From Fuerstiella sp. (GTDB lineage Bacteria; Planctomycetota; Planctomycetia; Planctomycetales; Planctomycetaceae), in NCBI GenBank assembly GCA_022447225.1, contig JAKVAZ010000007.1, forward strand, positions 50,475 to 114,474: a stretch of 64,000 nt of DNA, given 5' to 3'. Under the pieces are notes generated by a model. It worked only from the letters and a program-made list of their open reading frames with translations. It was not told where the DNA came from and searched no databases. The position numbers and the translations under genes are program-made. This document shows, one piece after another, positions 14,210-29,966 of this stretch. Position 1 is the stretch's first letter; each line of letters begins with the position of its first letter.

Positions 14210-17200
14210 CTATGGCGTTTGTTTCAGCAGGTGACCGCGGACTTTCTGGATTACTTGATCTGCTTTCGCGGTCCGTACCACTGAATGATCCTTCGGAATT
14301 GTGTTTGCACTGAATTCCGTGGTGCGGGCCAGATCCAGAATCTTCCGGGCCTGCGCCGGAGCACATGATTTCAGATTTGATGCAAGATCCTGAAAGGGGC
14401 TCCGGTGATCAGGCCCGTCACTGCCTTCAGTCTGATTCGGCTGTTCATCTACCCGTTTGTGCAATCGGTCAACAATGACAGCCACTGAGGCCGTGTCCTG
14501 AGCTGCCGCATATTCCTGCGCCAGAAGATAATCAGGCGAGGCATGCCAGGATGTACCGGATTTCAACAGCACACCGCCCGACTGCTGGAAATCGCTGAGG
14601 TGACGCAGTAACCGAATTACGATTTCTCTGAGGTCACCGTCACCGATCTTCTCGAATTCGCAGGCGGTTACCCAGACGGCACCGGGTGGCATCTGGGGCA
14701 GATGTCTGTCCAGAAATCTGTGCATTCTTTCGGAGACAGATTCCTGGCGGCCGAGATGGGCTTCCAAAACGGCTTCATAAATATGTCCACTCATCCAGTC
14801 CGGCTGGAGACTCACCGCGTCGCGGACTTCCTGCAATAACTCCGTGCACTGACGGTTTCGAACCGGAACACGAATCAACCGTGTCAACATTCCTGTTGCA
14901 CGCCCTCTTCCGGTGACGTTGAGGCGTTCACCGATCCCGGACCAAGGAGCCGGACGATACTCGTTGGTTGGGATGAGTTTTTTGCACTCATACTCAAAAA
15001 CCTCGGGCCGATTCCAGATCGCGTCGTGGGAAATATTGGCAAGCAGAGCCGGGCGCCCGGCTGGCCACGCGTGCCACGCGGCATCGAAGAGTTGCAGACC
15101 ACGATTTTCATCAACCGGCAGCAGTCGCTCTGTCAGTTGCTGTACACCCCAATGTGACATGCCTTCCTGTTTCAGGTCTGCCGCGAGAAGCATCTCAGCA
15201 AGTTCTTCCAGGCGTCCGGTGCGTTCAAACAGTCGGATAAAGCGATAGTAATCCCTGTGAAACAGTGTGATATCAGCCTGCAACAGGTAGCGACAGATAT
15301 CGCGTGCCGATTCGATTCGTCCCTGGCGTTCCAGCTGGCGCGCCAGTCGAAGTGCCCTGTCCGGTTCTTCCGTCAGCGACCGGCGAAGTGGTGCAGCGGT
15401 TCGGTCCGCATCTGCATCCCTCCCGTTTGCCCGCAATAACTCGACCAGCAGGTGTCGATGATGAATTGATGCATCGTGACGACTCATTCGTGACTGCAAC
15501 TGTCGAATGACGGGACCGAGAGCATCGCACTCTGAAAGCATGTTCATAGCGTCATGTCGGATCCGGATTGATGTGGTCACCGGAGTGTCTTCCAGAGTTA
15601 CGGACGGCTGCAGCAATAGGTTTCTCGCAATGCGGACGGCAGCAGCCGGGTTTCCTGCCTCGAAATACTGTGTCATGAGTCTGTGAAGTCCCGCTGCACG
15701 TCCTTTTGACGCCTGTGGCATGCGAGCAGTGAATCGACGAGACACTTCCGTAAGTCCGATGTTTTGGAGGAGTCCGGCAATCGAATCAGCTTCGATTCCT
15801 GTCAGGTTGAGATTAAACAGCCGTTGTGCAGCCAGTTTGGCACGTTCCTGGTCCCTAAGGAGCACACAGACTTCAAGGGCAAATCGTTCTGTTACCAAAA
15901 TCAGATCCCGATCATACTGAGCAGTAAACTGATTCATTAGAGACAGCGCCTCGCGTTCAGCGCCCACTCGTGACAAATATGCGGCAAGAGCCAGACGGAG
16001 TTCCACAGCGTCCGGAACCCGTTTAATGACGGGAAGAATCGCAAGCATTGCCTGGTGGTGTTCATCCTGAACTGTACACAGGCGTGCCAGGGCAATTGCC
16101 GCCGGAATGCAGACCCGGCTGGTTTGATCACGCGCAAGCTCGTTCAGATGTATCTGCACCATTTCGGCAGCGTCACCGGAGTCGTCTGCGGATTTAAGAT
16201 CCTGGAATAATGATGCTATTTCGAGATTCAGGTGTTTTTGAATCGGAGTCGACGGTACCGGTATCCGACGGTCTGCATCCTGAGTGACCATCCGACGCAG
16301 AAGTTCCGTACGTTGTTTTGTAGTCCTGCGGTGAAATTGCGGATCTGCAGCCAGGGTCAGCAATGGAAATCGTTCGGTCGCTGAATCGTATTCATCGGCG
16401 GTTCGCTCATACATTGTGATATCAGAGTTGTCGTGCCCGGTCGCGGGTACATAAGAAAGTGCCCGCAGACCCAGAATCAGGTCTGCAATCTGTATGACAG
16501 CTGCGTGATTTCTTTGTTCAATAAATGGGTTGGCAAATGATCGCAAACGTGACGGATACTGCTGCAGGCCTGCCATAACCGCATGGTCCGTCAGTTGCGT
16601 CATTGATTTCTGGATGCACGTCGTTACTGCATTCAGGTCTCCGGCAGCAAATGCCAGGTCCGTGGCAGACAGCAGGGTCAGGGGATTTGATGACTGACTC
16701 AGACGGTGGATCACGTCGGTCCAGGGTGGAGATTGTCCGCTGCCATTCAAATAACGAAACACAGCGGGCCATCCACCGATGTCTCCAAGCCACTCCGGAT
16801 GTTCCGTTGCCGTTTTCTCAGCCGCGGCGAGCACCTGTGCTGCAGCTTCCGGATCATCAGACACTTTGAATGTTTGTGTCGTCAGACTTCGGAAAACACC
16901 ACCTCTGCACTGCAGTCCCAGCATCAACAGCTGATGTCCCGGAGCATCTGAGCTGGAAAGTTTTTCGATGAGATCGTCGAAACGTACCATTTGTGAGATT
17001 GAGGCCCGTTGTGCTGCCGAACTCGCGCTGCGTGATGTGACGACAATTGAGCACCAGTCAGCAAGCTGGCGGTGGCTGATCTGATCTGTTTCGGCAAGCT
17101 TTGATTCTGTTTTCAGTCGTCCATCAAAATCCTGATCCAGCCACAGCAGGCCAACTGCTGTACAGCGGGCTCCTCCATAGTCGACCGGGGGAGTCAGGGG

Positions 17201-20200
17201 CTGAGAATACATTTCGTCGCCGGTGTACAACTCCAGCCAGTTCAACGCGCTGAGAATCCGGTTGACACGTCGGGAAAGAGGATTCACTGCCGATGGAAGT
17301 TCCGTTATTACGGACTGTTGACGACCGGCTGCCGGGAGTGGAATGCCGGTGTTCACATCAGACCGGGATTCTGGTTCCAAAAAAATATGTTCGGGAGACA
17401 AATTCAGATTCACAATTTTGTGCAGTGTGGCCACTGCCTCTTCGCGGTGATCCAGACGCCATTGAATGATTGCCAGACGATAAAGCATTCGCCAGTCCTT
17501 CGGACGATCAGCGGAGAGACGCTGGCACATCAACTCGGCAGCCTCCACGCGTCCTGCGTTTAGGAATCGATCGATGCTACGGAGCGCCACTGTTGTGTCA
17601 TTTCCGGAACGGGCATCCCGAATCCAGTTGAGCTCTGATTCACTGAGCTGTCCCGTTCTGTACTGCAAATCTGCAAGTCGGATTCGATCCTCTGCAGACG
17701 TACTGAGTGCGGTTAACTGTTGCTGGTAGTGTGCTGCGAGGTCCAGTTGTTCCTGTGTTTCGGCCAGTTCAACCTGCATTTTCAGGATTCGTATGTCACG
17801 TCCGAAGCGCAGAGCAGCCTGTTCGAGCAACTCCGTTGCACGTGCGGTATTATCAATACACTTCCATGCTGCAGCCAGACACAGACTGCGACCGACCGGA
17901 TCCGGACCCGGTGCTGTTGCGAGTTGATCAAGGACCCGGTCGGTTGTACCTGTTTGTTTGGCGGTCTCCATCAGAGCTTCGACAAGCGCGAAGTGACGAT
18001 CCGGGATTTGGGTTCGGTGAAATGCCTGCCAAAGCAGGAGCATTGAATCCCCCAGCTGAAATCGTTCCGCCATGATCTCTGCAAGATCCATCGTCAGCTG
18101 ATGATCATCCGGATTGAGCCGGACGCACGTTCGGAGACAATTCAGGCCATCCTTTTCCCGACCGGTTGTGAAACACAGTTCCGCGAACTGTCGACAACTG
18201 TCTGCATGTTCGGGTGATTCTCTGATCAGTAATTCAGCTGCCAGAACTGCCTGGTCGGTGCGGCCGAGTTGCTGTTCCAGTTCGACAACCCGTTGAAGTG
18301 CCTGCGTGCGGTATTGGGGACTCAGGTCTGCAATGTAACGGTTGGCGGACGCTGCCTGTTCCAGAAGTCCTGCCTCTGTGCAGATCTCAGCAGACGCCTG
18401 CCATGCCAGGACCGAGTCCGGTTCGGCAGCAGTTGCTTGATTCAGATAATGTACCGCATCTGAAATTCGGCCAATTGTCCGGGCCATAAGTCCCAGCTGA
18501 AGCCATCCGTGCGAATCCCCGGGGGTTCGCCGCAGGTCATCGTGTTTCCGGGCTATCCGAGTATGAAGTCCGGGATCCTGCTCCCATAATTCAATGTTGG
18601 CGTTGTTAATGATTCGTCGATCATCCGGAGACACGGGCGATTTTTGAGCGAGACTCAACTGTGCGTAGGCCTCGTTGAGTCGGTCTGCCTGCCGCAACAG
18701 TCGTGCCAGTCTGAGACGGTCATCGATATGGGGTGTCAGCAGACAGGCCTGCTGCATTGTTTGAAGTGCCGCTGCGAATTCTCCGGCCTTCTCCAGAATT
18801 TCTGACAGCCGTGCCAGGTTTTCTGTGGTACGTCGGGAACCGGCTGCGATTTCATTCCAGTTACGCCGTGCTTCTTCAGTTCGTCCCAGTTCATAGAGTG
18901 TTTCTCCGAGTTCTTCGCGCCAGGTTAAAGTATCGGGCGACAGCTTAACTGCTTTACCGTACAGTTTTGTTGCCCGGTCGGGCATGCCCGACCGCCAATG
19001 AAGCCGTGCGACCGAGGCCAGGGTCACCGCATCCTGTTGATGACCGCAGATCCGCATCCAGACGGCCGATGCCTGCTGCTCACGCTGATGTTGAGTCAGG
19101 TCCGGGTCCTGCAGGAGCAGACGACCAACAACTGTGTACTCGTCAGCTCCGGCCTCCTGGAGCTTCACGAGTTCCCTGCCCAGAAGAATGGCTTCCCGAA
19201 TCCTGCCCTGTTTCGTTAGCAGTTCGATCAGTGCGATACGCAGCTCCACCGACGATGGTCGGCGTTGGATTGCCTCGAAATACAATCCAACAGCCTCGTC
19301 GAATTCCCCCTGTGCTGTCAGGAGAGCTGCCAGTCGGGTGACCGATGGAATCTCTTGCGGCTGTTCTGAAAGACGATTACGAAGGTATTTGATGACGCCT
19401 GGACGTCCATGCGCACTCAGCAGAACGGACTCGATTCTCGCACGGATTAACTCCCCCAACCAGCTGTCCGGATGAATCTGATCAAGTTCAGCCTCAAGCG
19501 TTTTAAGTGCCTGTTCGTTTTGGCCGAGACGCAGTTGCACATCAGCGACGGATAAACGGTACTGAGTTCGACGTTCAGGGTTGGTGGTACCGGAAACCAG
19601 GCGATTCCATCGGGACAGAGCAGGCTGTAGCTGGCCGTATTCCTGAAGCCGGGCAGCGATGTCTTCCTGAATCGCCCGGTCATCAGGAAAATCCGACTCC
19701 ATCTGCAGCAGAACCTTCAGAGAACGGCTCGTATTTCCCGTGCGCTGGTGAAGCTTAAATAAATCCCGATAGACTGTTCGCCGATCGGATTTCGATGGGT
19801 TCTTTTTCAGGCTCCGTTCAAATGCTGCGATTGCCGCAGATATGTCTCCTGCATCTCTGAGTGCGCGTCCGAGGGCCTGCGAGGTTATGGGGTCCTCGGG
19901 ACGCTGCTGTTCGACCGATTCCAGCAGCACCACAGCTTCAGCGCCGTATCCCTGTCGGATCTGCAGCATGCCGGCAATAAGATGGCTGACGACGGCATCA
20001 GGATGAGACATCGGCAAACTGCTGAGCTCGATAATCAGATCTTCAAGCGTTCCACGCTTAGTGTGATAGCGACTAACACGGTCCAGTACCGCTCCGAAGG
20101 AAGGACGCCGCTTCAGCACATCAATAAGGCGGTCTCCGCTCAGGGAATTCGCAGCAGTTCGGCCAGACTGTTCAGTCGCGGTGACTGCACTGAACAAAGA

Positions 20201-20233
20201 AAAACATCCAATGATGATAATCCGATTAACCAT
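14210..20233 (-). CDS. giant exported TPR-repeat protein (2007 residues)
   Basis: This gene spans 6 kb and encodes a predicted exported scaffold. The ATG at 20233 begins a short signal peptide (M-V-N-R-I-I-I-I-G-C-F-S-L-F-S-A) with likely cleavage after A-V-T-A. An upstream GTG or ATG would bury it behind 40 polar residues, so I did not use one. Residues of about 60-900 are near-continuous TPR units (repeated A-x-L-x-P, G-x-x-x-A-x-x-x-L/Y patterns). Residues 900-1350 are less regular, and TPR-like units resume to about 1950. The tail is polar. No enzyme motif is seen. Proteins of this length with only helical repeats are common in planctomycetes, where they may shape periplasmic or membrane-bound assemblies; that is inference. 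Confidence 0.85.
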   Translation of the reverse strand: MVNRIIIIGCFSLFSAVTATEQSGRTAANSLSGDRLIDVLKRRPSFGAVLDRVSRYHTKRGTLEDLIIELSSLPMSHPDAVVSHLIAGMLQIRQGYGAEAVVLLESVEQQRPEDPITSQALGRALRDAGDISAAIAAFERSLKKNPSKSDRRTVYRDLFKLHQRTGNTSRSLKVLLQMESDFPDDRAIQEDIAARLQEYGQLQPALSRWNRLVSGTTNPERRTQYRLSVADVQLRLGQNEQALKTLEAELDQIHPDSWLGELIRARIESVLLSAHGRPGVIKYLRNRLSEQPQEIPSVTRLAALLTAQGEFDEAVGLYFEAIQRRPSSVELRIALIELLTKQGRIREAILLGRELVKLQEAGADEYTVVGRLLLQDPDLTQHQREQQASAVWMRICGHQQDAVTLASVARLHWRSGMPDRATKLYGKAVKLSPDTLTWREELGETLYELGRTEEARRNWNEIAAGSRRTTENLARLSEILEKAGEFAAALQTMQQACLLTPHIDDRLRLARLLRQADRLNEAYAQLSLAQKSPVSPDDRRIINNANIELWEQDPGLHTRIARKHDDLRRTPGDSHGWLQLGLMARTIGRISDAVHYLNQATAAEPDSVLAWQASAEICTEAGLLEQAASANRYIADLSPQYRTQALQRVVELEQQLGRTDQAVLAAELLIRESPEHADSCRQFAELCFTTGREKDGLNCLRTCVRLNPDDHQLTMDLAEIMAERFQLGDSMLLLWQAFHRTQIPDRHFALVEALMETAKQTGTTDRVLDQLATAPGPDPVGRSLCLAAAWKCIDNTARATELLEQAALRFGRDIRILKMQVELAETQEQLDLAAHYQQQLTALSTSAEDRIRLADLQYRTGQLSESELNWIRDARSGNDTTVALRSIDRFLNAGRVEAAELMCQRLSADRPKDWRMLYRLAIIQWRLDHREEAVATLHKIVNLNLSPEHIFLEPESRSDVNTGIPLPAAGRQQSVITELPSAVNPLSRRVNRILSALNWLELYTGDEMYSQPLTPPVDYGGARCTAVGLLWLDQDFDGRLKTESKLAETDQISHRQLADWCSIVVTSRSASSAAQRASISQMVRFDDLIEKLSSSDAPGHQLLMLGLQCRGGVFRSLTTQTFKVSDDPEAAAQVLAAAEKTATEHPEWLGDIGGWPAVFRYLNGSGQSPPWTDVIHRLSQSSNPLTLLSATDLAFAAGDLNAVTTCIQKSMTQLTDHAVMAGLQQYPSRLRSFANPFIEQRNHAAVIQIADLILGLRALSYVPATGHDNSDITMYERTADEYDSATERFPLLTLAADPQFHRRTTKQRTELLRRMVTQDADRRIPVPSTPIQKHLNLEIASLFQDLKSADDSGDAAEMVQIHLNELARDQTSRVCIPAAIALARLCTVQDEHHQAMLAILPVIKRVPDAVELRLALAAYLSRVGAEREALSLMNQFTAQYDRDLILVTERFALEVCVLLRDQERAKLAAQRLFNLNLTGIEADSIAGLLQNIGLTEVSRRFTARMPQASKGRAAGLHRLMTQYFEAGNPAAAVRIARNLLLQPSVTLEDTPVTTSIRIRHDAMNMLSECDALGPVIRQLQSRMSRHDASIHHRHLLVELLRANGRDADADRTAAPLRRSLTEEPDRALRLARQLERQGRIESARDICRYLLQADITLFHRDYYRFIRLFERTGRLEELAEMLLAADLKQEGMSHWGVQQLTERLLPVDENRGLQLFDAAWHAWPAGRPALLANISHDAIWNRPEVFEYECKKLIPTNEYRPAPWSGIGERLNVTGRGRATGMLTRLIRVPVRNRQCTELLQEVRDAVSLQPDWMSGHIYEAVLEAHLGRQESVSERMHRFLDRHLPQMPPGAVWVTACEFEKIGDGDLREIVIRLLRHLSDFQQSGGVLLKSGTSWHASPDYLLAQEYAAAQDTASVAVIVDRLHKRVDEQPNQTEGSDGPDHRSPFQDLASNLKSCAPAQARKILDLARTTEFSANTIPKDHSVVRTAKADQVIQKVRGHLLKQTP

Positions 20234-20547
20234 GCGAACTTTTTTTGAATGGAGTGAATTCTGTGTCACATCAAGACGGTGATTTCGGCAGCAGACGGTT
20301 CTGGTCAGTCCGGATTTATTCTGCCGGCCGGATTCGTCCCCTCTGCCATTCATTGTACCGCCCGGGAACTCAATTGAATCACAACATGCCGGTAAGCATA
20401 AGGAAACGTGAGGATACCCATACGACAGTACCGTTTGGCTATTTTCCGCTGAAAACAGACTCCTGGCGGCTTCGCCTTGAACGTATCAGCAGGAACGCGA
20501 TACTGCCGGAAAACTGTGATGAATAAGCCTGTTTGGAAATTTCGTTC
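20234..20547. other. divergent intergenic region
   Basis: This separates the giant TPR gene from peptide deformylase. It must hold both promoters, but I found no good consensus element and no gene in it. Confidence 0.5.
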
Positions 20548-25116: not shown

Positions 25117-26367
25117 GTGCAGGAAATGCCGGTAACAGCATCTCAACGAACGCCAGGCAGAGTATACCTTCTTGGTCTGCTTTTGACCGGGGCGTTCTAT
25201 GCAACGGCTCCGTTTATTCCAGGAATTCAGCCGTTCGTTCGTCGTTACTTTTGCAGCCATCCGATTGAGGTTCTAAGTACGGCTTTGTTCTTCTGCGGGA
25301 TTGCGGTCCTGTTCCATCGACTTTTGCGACTGCGGGCCGAAAGATCTGCAATTCGAATTGTCGAGGAATCTGCGTCTCACTGGGGTGCAGGAAGCAGCGC
25401 AGCGTTGAGGAACTGCTATGAAGCTCAACCAGCCGGTTTTCAGAAGACTGCGATCGCGGAACGACTGCGTGACGCTGTGCAGTATGTTAACGGATCCGGT
25501 GACTCGGGCCTGGAACAGCACTTGCGGTATCTGGCGGAACTGGCAGCTGATCGCCTGCATCAGAGTTATGCGTTGATTCGCACCATCACCTGGGCAATTC
25601 CGATCTTGGGATTTCTGGGAACCGTAATGGGAATCACGATAGCCATTGCAAATCTCACACCGGAGCAACTGGACTCGTCGCTTCCTGAGGTGGTTGGCGG
25701 ACTGGAAGCCGCATTTGATACGACCGCACTGGCACTGGGAATGTCCATCCTTCTCGTGTTTGCTGCATTTGTAACGGAACGAAGCGAACAGAATGTTCTC
25801 AACATTGTAGAACGACTGGGTATTAACCACATTCTGCCGCGTTTTGCGTCGCAACCGTTTGGGCATTCGTCTGTTCTTCCTGATGCCGATGACTGGAATC
25901 GCCAGTGTGAAGCTCTGCAGTCCGTCTGGACTGATACTCTCAGCCAGCATTTTGAGTTGCTTTCAGAAAGACTGCAGTCTGATGTTGAACTCACGCTGGA
26001 TAGTCACCGTGAAGCGGCAACTGCAGCACGGTTCAGCCTGGATCAGACGATGAAAGACAGCGCAGCAGAGTACGCAAAGACAATGACAGAGAGTCTTTGC
26101 AGTTTTTCAGATCGTGTTGATCACTGGCAGCGGGCGATGCTGGTCAGTTCCACCTCCGCGGCGGAACAGACTGAGGCAATTCATCAACTAGGCCGCACAC
26201 TGATGAAAATGAATGAGTCAGAAGAACGACTGGCAGGTCTGCAGAAGCAGTTGAATGACAATCTTCAGGCGGTTCGGACTGCTGACGCACTTGAACAGGC
26301 GGTGTCCAGTTTGTCGGCGGCTGTCAATCTGTTGACGACAAAAACGTCGCACCGCACGGCTGCCTGA
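25117..26367 (+). CDS. MotA/TolQ/ExbB-like proton channel subunit
   Basis: This is the first gene of a three-gene operon. The 416-residue protein has four predicted membrane spans (about 15-34, 50-70, 158-178 and 198-219). The last two carry the family signatures G-F-L-G-T-V-M-G-I and G-G-L-E-A-A-F-D-T-T-A-L-A-L-G. In this family the pentameric ring conducts protons with partner rods in its centre. Four spans resemble MotA more than ExbB (three). The C-terminal 195 residues are hydrophilic and probably coiled coil, an unusually long cytoplasmic tail that recalls ZorA. A GTG at 25117 has GAGGGGA six bases upstream; the ATG at 25126 is the alternative. The driven process is unknown. Confidence 0.88.
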   Translation: MQEMPVTASQRTPGRVYLLGLLLTGAFYATAPFIPGIQPFVRRYFCSHPIEVLSTALFFCGIAVLFHRLLRLRAERSAIRIVEESASHWGAGSSAALRNCYEAQPAGFQKTAIAERLRDAVQYVNGSGDSGLEQHLRYLAELAADRLHQSYALIRTITWAIPILGFLGTVMGITIAIANLTPEQLDSSLPEVVGGLEAAFDTTALALGMSILLVFAAFVTERSEQNVLNIVERLGINHILPRFASQPFGHSSVLPDADDWNRQCEALQSVWTDTLSQHFELLSERLQSDVELTLDSHREAATAARFSLDQTMKDSAAEYAKTMTESLCSFSDRVDHWQRAMLVSSTSAAEQTEAIHQLGRTLMKMNESEERLAGLQKQLNDNLQAVRTADALEQAVSSLSAAVNLLTTKTSHRTAA

Positions 26368-26505
26368 CCGCAGTGACGTCATGACCTTCTGTGTTATCTG
26401 TTAGCACAACCGATTTCGTCGCATGGATTTCAGGAGACCGATCTCAGACCGATGGGCAGAGTCTTCCCGGCTGACTGAAGGACGTTGAAGGTGTAACAGC
26501 ACGAG

Positions 26506-28758
26506 ATGGTAACACGTCGAAACGAAAAAACGATTTCGCTGTTCCCCTTTTTGGCAGTCCTTGTCTGCACGATGGGGGCACTGATTCTGCTTCTGCTTGT
26601 CACAACGCGACGCATACGTCAGAAGCAGCAGGCCACGCCTGTTGAAACTGTTCTTTCAGATTCCGCTGTCGTTGAGCCCGTATCTCAGCCGGCAGGTGGC
26701 GTCGATTCCGGAGCGACAGTTGCGGAATCAGTGTTGGCGAGTGTTGAACTGGCAGTCGCTCGGCAGCAGAGCCTGGAAAACGAGCTAAGTCTCAAGGTTT
26801 ACAAGCGAGACCATTCAGCATTGTTTCAGCAGGTCAGTCGGCATACCCGGGAAGTGGCGGAACTAAAGTGTGTGCTGGAAGCGGAATGCGAAAACAGCAA
26901 TACAGCGTCCTCAGACAATAACACATTAACCCGAGAGTTAACGGATCTTCAAAATGAGAGAGTCAAGCTGGAGGATGAGCTGAAAACGTTTCGAGAGTCG
27001 GTCAGGCAATCGGAGGTCAAACGGTCGGCGGCAGAATCGATGGTGGTGACAGCAAATCAACTGATTGAAGAGCGGCATTCGGCGCTTCAGGATCTAAGTG
27101 AGATTCGCCAGGATCAGCTGGCTGATCCCGGGACGACAGTAACGATCATTGAATTCAGTAACTCCGCCGGCACAGCCAGAACTCCCATCGTTGTGGACGT
27201 GACTGGCAGCGAATTCGTATTTCCGGCAACGCAGATCAAAATTCGACGAAGTGATATGGAGGGTGTGTTACCGACAGACAATCCTCTGTTGTCCGGTGTA
27301 CTGGCAGTGCACCGCAAACGCTGCTCTGTCTCATCAGGGTCGCGACCTTACGTCCTGTTGCTGGTGAGACCGGCAGGCACGCTTGATTTTTATCTTGCTC
27401 AGCGAATATTCACGGAATCCGGCATTCATTTTGGTTACGAGCTACTGGAAGAGAACGCAGCCATTGCAGCAGCACAGCCAGTCGAAGGTGAAGCCGATGT
27501 TCTGGAGACTGCTGTCCGGCACTCACTTCAGCGGCGTGACCAACAGGCTCGGATTGCCTTCTCACTTCGTCAGAGGATTGCGGCTGCGCGGGGTGCCCGG
27601 CGCGACAATCGCGACCGTTCGTATTTTGGTTCAAATGAAACGACCGCCAGTGGTCGTCGCCGCTATTTTAGTGAACCGTTTGATGATACGGAACTGGACG
27701 AGTCCTCACAGAATCCATTGAAACGGTATGCAGAACGGACCCAACCTGAACAGGACAGTTCCGACAGGCACAGGAGCTTTGGTTCTTCAAAGTTTCCGCA
27801 CGGGGGTGCGGACGAATCAGGGGATCCGGCAGCCCGATTTTCAAATCCGGAAGAAGTGCGGAAAGAAGTCTGGAGGTCGATTCCGTCCGTGGCCGAGGCG
27901 CAGAATCATGTTGAAGGAGCACTCGCCCAGGCTCTTGCTGAACGCAGGCGGCGACAGGATCGGAATCGAGGAAGCAGTGCCGGTACAAAGTTTTCCTCCA
28001 GCGATTTACTGAAACCGCAACGGACGCGGGAGAAGGGGTCTCCGGACGTTCGGGGCAGTGGTGACGGTGACTTATCAGATGAGTTTGTGAATACATCAAC
28101 ATTCGCTGAGTCCGATGTTGAAGAATTTCGGGCTGAGCAGCAGCCACTGACTCCGCGACCGGTTCCGCAAAATTCATCCCCTCGTCATGCCGGCGGGAAT
28201 TCGGTACCCGGAGGGACTCAACCGGGACGTCCTTCGCAGGAGGGGCACAACCACCGTCCGAATGAAACTTCAGTTGATGCCTTAAATCCGCCGGACAGCA
28301 CGATGGCCCGGACAAGTGCATTGTCTCCGAAAGGGGGATCAGCCGGAGGCAGTCCGAGCCGCACAATCACTGGTGGTTTGATCACGTATAAACAAGTTAC
28401 CATTTATCTTGATCCACAGCATTTCACCATCGCCGGTCAACCATCGGTGGCACTTCACGGACGGACGGTCAGTCACATCACTCAGGAGCTGGCGGACCGA
28501 CTGTTTGAAATCAGCTTGCAGAACCCGCATCCGCTGGTGGAAATGACAGCACCTTCTGCAAAATTTGTGGTCAGCCCCGGGGCTCACACCTTGTATCTGC
28601 AGCTGGCGACCGGTTTGCACAGATTGAGGATCCCCGTGGCTTCCATGGTGAGTATGGAGGCATTTGTGAGGAGTGATGACCGAGTTTTTGAACCAGTCAC
28701 AAAACCTGCTGTGCAGCAACCGACGTCTCAGTTCTCCGATGTGGGGGACCTGCCATGA
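26506..28758 (+). CDS. membrane-anchored ExbD-like coiled-coil protein lacking the membrane Asp
   Basis: This is the middle gene of the operon, encoding 750 residues. A short basic N-terminus is followed by one span (about 12-33, L-F-P-F-L-A-V-L-V-C-T-M-G-A-L-I) placed like the span of ExbD or MotB but without an acidic residue. Residues 75-200 look coiled coil. Residues 210-320 form a small alpha/beta domain whose end (L-L-V-R-P-A-G then a helix, then G-I-H-F-G-Y-E-L) resembles the distal ExbD fold. Residues 330-615 are low complexity, rich in R, S, P and G, probably disordered. Residues 620-730 form a separate beta-rich domain. Its ATGA overlap with the next gene implies translational coupling. 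The function is not known. Confidence 0.8.
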   Translation: MVTRRNEKTISLFPFLAVLVCTMGALILLLLVTTRRIRQKQQATPVETVLSDSAVVEPVSQPAGGVDSGATVAESVLASVELAVARQQSLENELSLKVYKRDHSALFQQVSRHTREVAELKCVLEAECENSNTASSDNNTLTRELTDLQNERVKLEDELKTFRESVRQSEVKRSAAESMVVTANQLIEERHSALQDLSEIRQDQLADPGTTVTIIEFSNSAGTARTPIVVDVTGSEFVFPATQIKIRRSDMEGVLPTDNPLLSGVLAVHRKRCSVSSGSRPYVLLLVRPAGTLDFYLAQRIFTESGIHFGYELLEENAAIAAAQPVEGEADVLETAVRHSLQRRDQQARIAFSLRQRIAAARGARRDNRDRSYFGSNETTASGRRRYFSEPFDDTELDESSQNPLKRYAERTQPEQDSSDRHRSFGSSKFPHGGADESGDPAARFSNPEEVRKEVWRSIPSVAEAQNHVEGALAQALAERRRRQDRNRGSSAGTKFSSSDLLKPQRTREKGSPDVRGSGDGDLSDEFVNTSTFAESDVEEFRAEQQPLTPRPVPQNSSPRHAGGNSVPGGTQPGRPSQEGHNHRPNETSVDALNPPDSTMARTSALSPKGGSAGGSPSRTITGGLITYKQVTIYLDPQHFTIAGQPSVALHGRTVSHITQELADRLFEISLQNPHPLVEMTAPSAKFVVSPGAHTLYLQLATGLHRLRIPVASMVSMEAFVRSDDRVFEPVTKPAVQQPTSQFSDVGDLP

Positions 28759-29966
28759 ATCGTCGAAACGCCGGTGGAGACCCGGAATTCGGTTCCGACT
28801 CGTTTCTGGACATTATTGCCAACATCGTGGGGATTCTGATCATTCTGATTGTGATTGCAGGAGTAAAAGTTGCACGGCAGCCAGTGATTGCACCGAGTCT
28901 CAAACCCGTCACTCACGCCACATCGAACTCCGAGAAAATTCAATCGCGTTTCCTGACGACTGAAAGATACATAAAGTCCGTTGCACTCAGTCACGAACAT
29001 GTCGAGCACCTGCGGAATGAAACGAATCGACACGCTGCACAGGCAGGTGCGTTACAGGATCAAATAAACGATTTGAAGATTCAAACGGAAGAATTAACGG
29101 TCGAAGAAAGTCGACTTCTGAAAGAGTCTGAAAGTTTCACTGACAGAATTTCTGCGATTCAACAGCAGACACTGCGGTCAGAAACAGTTCTGACTTCACT
29201 GGGAGAGGAGGCTGAGGAACTGCGGGGTATCATCACCCGATTGCGCGATCAGTCAGCTGGGGAGAAAACGCGACATGATTTGATTCTAAAGTCAACGAAA
29301 ACCGCTTTTGCCAACCAGGAAGCTGCTGAACAGCAGCTTCGGCAGATCAGCGCGCAGACTCAGAAGCTGAAGGAACTTCTCGAACAGCAAAAGGCAGAAC
29401 CCGCTCCGGAAGACAATCGACTGGAACACCGTCTGACGCCTGTTGTACGCACCGACAGTGATCAGGAACTTCATTTTCGTTTGAGCGGAGGCCGTATATC
29501 TTGGGTTCCGCTTGAGGCACTGTTGGAACGTCTCAAACGACAGGTGCCAAATCGAGTTGATGTGATTCGTCGCTTCGGTCGTTATGAAGGGGTATGTGGG
29601 CCGGTGGGAGGCTACATTATGAACTATGCGGTCGAGCGTCACCTGCCGTCACCGCTGGAACGTCTGAACGCTGCTTCTTCGATGTTTCGTGTCTCTGTTT
29701 CACGCTGGACGGTGAGTCCGATGGAGTCGCTCCAGGCGGAACCCGTGGAAGAAGCGATGGCATTCGGTTCTGCGTTTCGCCGGATTCTGGAGGCTGCTGA
29801 TGTGGATTCGCTGATGACAATATGGCTCTATCCGGACGATTTCGTCTGTTTCGGGCAGCTCAGAGAATTCGGACACAGATTGGGTCTGCGGGTGGCGGCC
29901 CGTCCGCTTCCCCGTAATGCAGAAATCAGTGGATCGCCGGGGGGGAGTCGATCCGGCGGACAGTAG
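28755..29966 (+). CDS. membrane-anchored ExbD-like coiled-coil protein with membrane Asp
   Basis: This is the third gene of the operon, encoding 403 residues. It starts inside the stop of the middle gene (ATGA, 28755-28758). A single span (about 17-38, S-F-L-D-I-I-A-N-I-V-G-I-L-I) carries Asp19 at its edge, the position of the essential proton-binding aspartate in ExbD, TolR and MotB. Residues 60-215 are strongly heptad-like coiled coil. The C-terminal domain (about 225-390) ends with a strand-helix-strand (I-W-L-Y-P-D-D-F, helix, G-L-R-V-A-A-R-P-L-P) similar in layout to the segment in the middle gene. I infer that it is the active rod subunit of a proton-driven complex. Confidence 0.83.
   Translation: MNRRNAGGDPEFGSDSFLDIIANIVGILIILIVIAGVKVARQPVIAPSLKPVTHATSNSEKIQSRFLTTERYIKSVALSHEHVEHLRNETNRHAAQAGALQDQINDLKIQTEELTVEESRLLKESESFTDRISAIQQQTLRSETVLTSLGEEAEELRGIITRLRDQSAGEKTRHDLILKSTKTAFANQEAAEQQLRQISAQTQKLKELLEQQKAEPAPEDNRLEHRLTPVVRTDSDQELHFRLSGGRISWVPLEALLERLKRQVPNRVDVIRRFGRYEGVCGPVGGYIMNYAVERHLPSPLERLNAASSMFRVSVSRWTVSPMESLQAEPVEEAMAFGSAFRRILEAADVDSLMTIWLYPDDFVCFGQLREFGHRLGLRVAARPLPRNAEISGSPGGSRSGGQ

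Follow-up and report, generated by a model that had tools for sequence, protein, structure and literature searches.

Models that explain the turning of MotAB/ExbBD-type motors centre on alternation between two aspartates. In the published 5:2 scheme, as set out in the accessible part of PMC9389320, the motor advances in 36-degree steps, one per ion, with two equivalent sites, or in five 72-degree steps where contact with the outside breaks the symmetry. Motors with two different rods have been reported. The AglRQS gliding motor of Myxococcus xanthus combines one channel with two rod proteins, AglQ and AglS, both of which are predicted to carry the aspartate according to that part of PMC9389320. 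In planctomycetes and other members of the Planctomycetes-Verrucomicrobia-Chlamydiae (PVC) group, uncharacterised operons encode tolQ-like motors in which a heterologous tolR-like pair is combined with a vWA transducer, and their TPH-vWA pairs have one aspartate per monomer, according to the accessible sections of a 2025 paper (PMC12204202). Here we analyzed a 64,000-nucleotide stretch of DNA from Fuerstiella sp. (contig JAKVAZ010000007.1, assembly GCA_022447225.1; hereafter the window), which contains a three-gene operon encoding a MotA/TolQ/ExbB-type channel protein (A) and two single-span rod proteins (B and C). The missing aspartate in B is the operon's most unusual feature, and one that the original prediction did not mention.

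The operon occupies positions 25117-29966 on the plus strand and consists of open reading frames of 416 (A), 750 (B) and 403 (C) residues. A gap of 138 bases separates A from B, and the stop codon of B and the start codon of C share a 4-base ATGA overlap. The positions, lengths and overlap agree with the original prediction, which was made from the sequence of the window alone. A matches the Pfam family PF01618 (E 3.4e-13, 49.9 bits, against a curated cut-off of 22.9), and a profile alignment with hhalign matches it to an ExbB set made up of the Escherichia coli protein and planctomycete paralogues (probability 93.7). By our reading A has four hydrophobic spans, and ~194 residues follow the fourth span. 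The original prediction of a four-span MotA/ExbB-like channel with a tail of ~195 residues is thus confirmed. Two threonines of A, Thr169 and Thr203, align with the pore threonines of ExbB (Table 1), and both are invariant in all 19 aligned A proteins; these come from the window and from 18 of 20 fetched loci, the remaining two having no A in the fetched stretch.

The gene set is conserved far above chance. C is present in 59 of the 61 genomes of the family. The two genomes without a C match are G029 and G054; in each of them the contig ends inside B, before the expected place of C, and in G054 the reading frame of A is also broken. Among the 80 named loci, which were found by means of C, B adjoins C in 79 and a contig end truncates the remaining one. 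Conservation of the three genes together in relatives, which the original prediction had named as a check on its proposal, is therefore seen. An A match is present in 64 of the 80 named loci; in 12 of the 16 loci without one, B (or C) lies within ~550 bases of a contig end. A is not nearby in L159, L161, L164 and L175, and it follows C in six loci (L126, L127, L128, L130, L132 and L176). In a sample of 148 genomes from the class, C is found in 117 and B in 121, with both together in 117 when the two genome lists are compared by eye. Four genomes have B only: in three of them (G029, G433 and G441) B runs off the contig, and in G405 it ends ~530 bases from the contig end and an open frame overlaps its stop. 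In a sample of 294 genomes from the phylum, strong C matches (E 2e-55 or better) occur in 20, all in the same class, and the weaker matches lead to smaller paralogous operons and to two further loci, L095 and L096.

The membrane helices of the two rods are related. Compared as profiles by hhalign, they match with a probability of 97.7 (E 1.8e-12), and the alignment places Ala17 of B under Asp19 of C, the presumed proton-binding residue. Asp19 is present in 81 of 81 C proteins. The matching position in B (n=72) is Ala in 61, Asp in 8, Thr in 2 and a gap in 1. A similar pattern is found in 22 loci from other families of the class, where B has Ala in 17, Thr, Ser and Asp in 1 each, and is unreadable in 2. 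Where the reading relied on regular-expression motifs, B was unreadable in 5 of the 72 named or window B proteins, in 2 of the 22 others and in 14 rows of the comparison of channels with B described below; mis-called starts are among the causes. One of the eight Asp-bearing B proteins (L175, 5591-8512) has a membrane helix of the C type (SDSFLDVLANMVGILIIL), as if it had been swapped. The smaller paralogous operon shows Ser in 6 of 6 B proteins and Asp in 7 of 7 C proteins (L084, L085, L086, L088, L093 and L094, with L087 contributing C only). Its A begins with a zinc-ribbon-like CxxC in 4 of 6 cases, its B and C are ~270 and ~370 residues long, and its C end is different. The A/B/C-like operons L095 and L096, found elsewhere in the phylum, are more distant; L095 has an FLD motif in both rods and L096 has the aspartate there in one rod only. 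The genome of the window itself also contains a canonical ExbB gene with two different ExbD genes behind it, each of which retains the aspartate (L222, G000:C13:77000-83000). Two different rods are thus not exceptional in themselves, contrary to what the original prediction implied, since AglQ/AglS, the PVC motors and this ExbD pair are all counter-examples.

Combining the sequence alignments with AlphaFold2 models provided insights into the architecture of the rods. The original prediction stressed a strong difference in their size. Their total lengths do differ as predicted, but the extra length is mostly a B insert of ~250 residues (373-626) that is mostly predicted to be disordered, so the greater length of B is not coil; the two coils have 136 and 134 residues. 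In C, a disordered linker connects the membrane helix (residues 14-40) to the coil (residues 80-213). B has a second alpha/beta domain with a weak profile match to the first (probability 65). Stalk length, defined as the distance between conserved anchor residues from the helix to the first distal domain, is nearly equal in the two rods of the window (182 in B and 185 in C), and it co-varies between B and C over 71 loci (Spearman 0.85, Pearson 0.92). Phylogenetic contrasts give r 0.85, a value reached in 0 of 10000 permutations, and 0.57 after removal of the ten strongest contrasts. As a control, the C stalk was compared with the A tail, giving a rho of 0.11 (60 loci). A first run that included L148 gave a Spearman of 0.84 and a Pearson of 0.79; this locus was dropped because its B starts at a contig end. 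The co-variation in length is consistent with B and C forming a parallel pair.

The alpha/beta ends of B and C are tentatively ExbD/TolR-like in the strand-helix order of their models. It was predicted that both rods would end in a similar strand-helix-strand, and the ends do look similar in the AlphaFold2 models, the likeness being an impression of the fold. The Pfam scan gave no match to ExbD (PF02472) for either rod, and comparison of the rods with Pfam, NCBIfam and PADLOC produced weak matches only, mostly in the coils. When the B and C profiles were compared with solved structures, the matches (best 60 of 283 and best 60 of 262, respectively) were mostly to coiled coils and over the coil part. 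A Foldseek search with the two models returned no match at E 0.001 or better, and the structure-match list of B was filled by its coil. We class the operon with the 5:2 motors, in whose manner it would work. A belongs to the channel family; the rods are not ExbD/TolR by sequence and only tentatively so by fold.

Loss of the channel in one family, f93, provided a further view of the system. Genomes of this family have B and C, but their A-profile matches are only 1.9e-31 or weaker, with none in G424. Genomes without B and C give A-profile matches up to 2.2e-26, a level that we attribute to ordinary ExbB genes. At 30 loci of f93, A is found in 0 of the 30 fetched stretches (8 of 19.5 kb and 22 of 3-6 kb), and none of the 30 C proteins has the aspartate motif. 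B is present in 29 of the 30 stretches, and the standard B helix motif is readable in none. At the 22 loci of other families, by comparison, the C aspartate motif is present in 22 and A lies in the fetched stretch in 21. In the loci read, the aspartate is therefore kept where A is kept. The distal domains of B and C are retained in f93. The C end is also still conserved there (L242-L249 and L253-L274), reading about ARPLPEGMxIRGSPxGSxSAxQ; its conservation where the motor helix is lost suggests that the C tail probably has a use of its own.

The residue in B is also loosely related to the type of channel. Standard channels have FDTT at the second pore threonine. Rows that combine an FDTT channel with a B have Ala in 67, Ser in 5 and Thr in 3, with 3 unreadable, so that Asp occurs in 0 of 75 readable rows; the rows are non-independent and include the smaller paralogous operons. 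Asp in B is found alongside FNTT channels in six loci of one lineage and in G419, where the channel is unlinked. The other cases are L167 (FDAT channel), L175 (no A in the stretch) and G427 (unlinked channel, AFNTST). Comparison of the six-locus lineage with its sister loci L119 and L131, which have a standard channel and Ala in B, shows C domains that are 83-88% identical and channels that are only 27-29% identical.

We propose that the operon probably encodes a proton-driven motor of the 5:2 kind with a mixed B/C axle. Five copies of A would form a wheel in the inner membrane, and one B helix together with one C helix would form the axle. One B and one C per channel is favoured by the co-variation of the stalks, by the joint decay in f93 and by the absence of Asp in B alongside FDTT channels. 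With the proton-binding aspartate normally on C alone, such an axle would have one working site. If the published 5:2 scheme is followed, one site per axle would give five steps per turn: each turn would take ~5 protons and steps of 72 degrees, where two sites would take 10 protons and steps of 36 degrees. The coils of B and C, matched in length, would run in parallel and span the periplasm as a single rod, and the TolR/ExbD-like rod tips and the fixed C-terminal tail of C would face a partner. The computed results comprise the gene set, the relationship of A to its family, the distribution of the aspartate, the co-varying stalks and the joint decay in f93, whereas the stoichiometry, the flow of protons, the rotation and the target are inferred. 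The more complete picture is of a class-wide 5:2-type motor with an asymmetric 1:1 axle, a single proton site and five 72-degree steps, with two sites in a few lineages that use other channels and, in one family, loss of the channel and of both motor helices but retention of the distal rod domains; we give this picture even chances. The process driven could be a housekeeping task in the envelope, such as a Tol-like force on the cell wall or outer membrane, a suggestion that we make tentatively and consider somewhat doubtful.

A number of observations weigh against a mixed axle of this kind. Thr203 is not universal, and a further locus (L134) has FDPV in its place. One genome, G162, has none of A, B and C, and the system is therefore not indispensable. 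The 30 f93 loci form one clade (support 0.988), so the joint loss of A and the aspartate counts as one event. The link between channel and aspartate is not strict: FNTT channels also occur with Ala in B (L289, G034 and G048, the last two with unlinked channels) and with Ser in B (L088 and L094), and other non-standard channels occur with Ala in B (FDAT twice, FDST and FGTT). Neither the helices nor the domains of B and C match ExbD by hhalign (probability ≤2.3). The fold of C matches TolR (5by4) with a Z of 5.9 over 85 aligned residues at 3.5 Å, tied with unrelated folds, and the TolR-like reading therefore depends on the order of the elements. The AlphaFold2 model of B bends its coil back as a hairpin instead of an extended rod. 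The longest Pro-free stretch, a cruder measure of the coil, shows no correlation between B and C (rho -0.01), and the length of the B insert also correlates with that of the C stalk (rho 0.39, or 0.22 on contrasts). In addition, matched stalk lengths would also arise from separate B2 and C2 rods of equal reach.

Such separate rods are the basis of another explanation, in which two homodimeric motors share A: A5C2 would be a proton motor, and B2 a separate inactive or regulatory rod that reaches the same layer. It is in keeping with the aspartate usually being in C only, and for AglQ and AglS the accessible part of PMC9389320 states that it is not known whether they form homo- or heterodimers. 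However, a B2 rod without the aspartate could not be driven by protons through the known mechanism, yet the B helix is among the most conserved parts. B is also never clearly seen without C, and its aspartate occurs only alongside non-standard channels. We therefore consider homodimers unlikely, with a small but real chance of being correct. In the f93 family the domains of B and C and the tail of C persist although a close A and the signature of the motor helix are missing, which raises the question of whether B and C are mainly a static scaffold of the envelope, with A as a secondary, dispensable module. The C aspartate motif is present in 22 of 22 loci of the other families, where a simple anchor would have no need of it, and only a small chance is left for the scaffold.

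Comparison with the known systems bears on the remaining explanations. The operon resembles ExbBD/TolQR of E. coli in the channel family, both pore threonines, a C aspartate that probably corresponds to ExbD D25 and possibly TolR-like tips. It could accordingly be an ordinary but divergent two-aspartate motor of this type with a known function, which would agree with the PF01618 match, the hint of a TolR-like fold, the aspartate in C and the lineages with an aspartate in both rods. Unlike ExbBD/TolQR, the operon has two different rods, one of them usually without the aspartate (most lineages lack it in B), coils of ~135 residues, a long tail on A and no match to ExbD by sequence or profile. 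The genome has separate canonical ExbB/ExbD genes, and the seven flanking proteins scanned contain no TonB, TolA or Pal match; a TonB reading was rejected on these grounds, and an ordinary motor has a slim chance. With ZorAB of Zorya the operon shares the channel family and a long cytoplasmic channel tail, and within PADLOC A scores highest with ZorA profiles (37.7 bits). A Zorya-like defence motor, in which the A tail and the rods trigger an effector, is nevertheless highly improbable and was rejected: ZorA2 scores 27.2 bits against a cut-off of 700, B and C have no ZorB match in PADLOC, no effector is found in the seven flanking proteins (Pfam only), no neighbour recurs in most of the 80 loci, and presence in 59 of 61 family genomes is unlike the patchy distribution of defence genes. 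A gliding (GldLM/PorLM) reading was also rejected, the GldL profile scoring 13 bits against a cut-off of 68.3. The mixed-axle motor that we prefer is like AglRQS in having one channel and two rod genes and unlike it in having Ala17 in B, whereas the aspartate is predicted in AglQ as well as in AglS. It is like the PVC motors, as far as the accessible sections of PMC12204202 describe them, in occurring in planctomycetes with heterologous rod pairs. It differs from them in that one rod usually lacks the aspartate and that the Pfam scan of A, B, C and the seven flanking proteins found no vWA domain.

Table 1. Coordinates in the window of the operon's genes and of their principal parts.
Feature	Position	Strand	Basis
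A: MotA/TolQ/ExbB-type channel protein, 416 aa, GTG start	25117..26367	+	PF01618
A Thr169, pore, aligned with ExbB Thr148	25621..25623	+	hhalign
A Asp201-Thr202-Thr203 (FDTT motif), Thr203 aligned with ExbB Thr181	25717..25725	+	hhalign
A cytoplasmic tail, ~194 residues after span 4, conserved end AAV..LL....AA	25783..26364	+	alignment
B: single-span rod without aspartate, 750 aa	26506..28758	+	open reading frame, AlphaFold2
B membrane helix SLFPFLAVLVC.MGALI, residues 13-43	26542..26634	+	alignment, AlphaFold2
B Ala17, matching the C Asp19 position	26554..26556	+	hhalign of the two helices
B coiled coil, residues 70-205 (136 residues)	26713..27120	+	AlphaFold2
B first alpha/beta domain, residues 228-313	27187..27444	+	AlphaFold2, predicted local distance difference test (pLDDT) mostly above 90
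B insert, residues 373-626, mostly predicted disordered	27622..28383	+	low pLDDT, little conserved
B second alpha/beta domain, residues 627-715	28384..28650	+	AlphaFold2
C: single-span rod with aspartate, 403 aa	28755..29966	+	open reading frame, AlphaFold2
C membrane helix SFLDIIANIVGILIILIV, residues 14-40	28794..28874	+	alignment, AlphaFold2
C Asp19, presumed proton-binding residue	28809..28811	+	invariant 81/81
C coiled coil, residues 80-213 (134 residues)	28992..29393	+	AlphaFold2
C distal alpha/beta domain, residues 238-393	29466..29933	+	AlphaFold2, pLDDT mostly above 90
C conserved end IxGSPxGSRSxxQ, residues 391-403	29925..29963	+	alignments

The surroundings of the operon were also inspected. 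The host genome is 5.43 Mb, and protein C has its best named match (72% identity) in a metagenome-derived Fuerstiella genome. Genes upstream of the operon lie on the opposite strand and code for a TPR protein and for a protein whose zinc-ribbon match falls below threshold. The downstream genes encode a dihydroxy-acid dehydratase, a phosphodiesterase-family protein, a CitG-like protein and a PTPS-like protein. None of the flanking genes appears to resemble a motor partner, and the Pfam scan of the seven flanking proteins found no defence or flagellar match either, as the original prediction had stated for defence nuclease, TonB, Pal and flagellar genes. Further away, at 14210-20353 on the minus strand of the window, is a gene for a 2047-residue protein with TPR-like repeats, as judged by eye. 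No partner among the neighbour genes is common enough in the 80 named loci to name a function. The commonest neighbour is a Pfam-less protein of ~1340 residues; in 26 of the 80 it is encoded on the opposite strand, upstream of the operon (e.g. L159:1883-5917), and in the window's own genome it is unlinked (G000:C4:31994-35818, 46% identity).

In the open-access full texts searched, we found no description of the operon or of a conserved rod pair with one aspartate. ExbB, MotA, Tol and ExbD are absent from the accessible portion of the main text of a paper on essential genes in Planctopirus limnophila (PMC10632474), and none of the terms sought in PMC12283558 occurs there.

A one-aspartate motor across much of a bacterial class, if true, would offer a natural test of whether a motor needs two sites, how large its steps are and how many ions each turn costs. 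Its axle would be distinguishable, since B and C can be labelled apart, which is impossible in homodimeric motors. The related lineages with two, one and no aspartates are ready comparisons. The operon is conserved widely and belongs to a phylum whose cell division is unusual, which makes it a candidate for unknown envelope biology as well.

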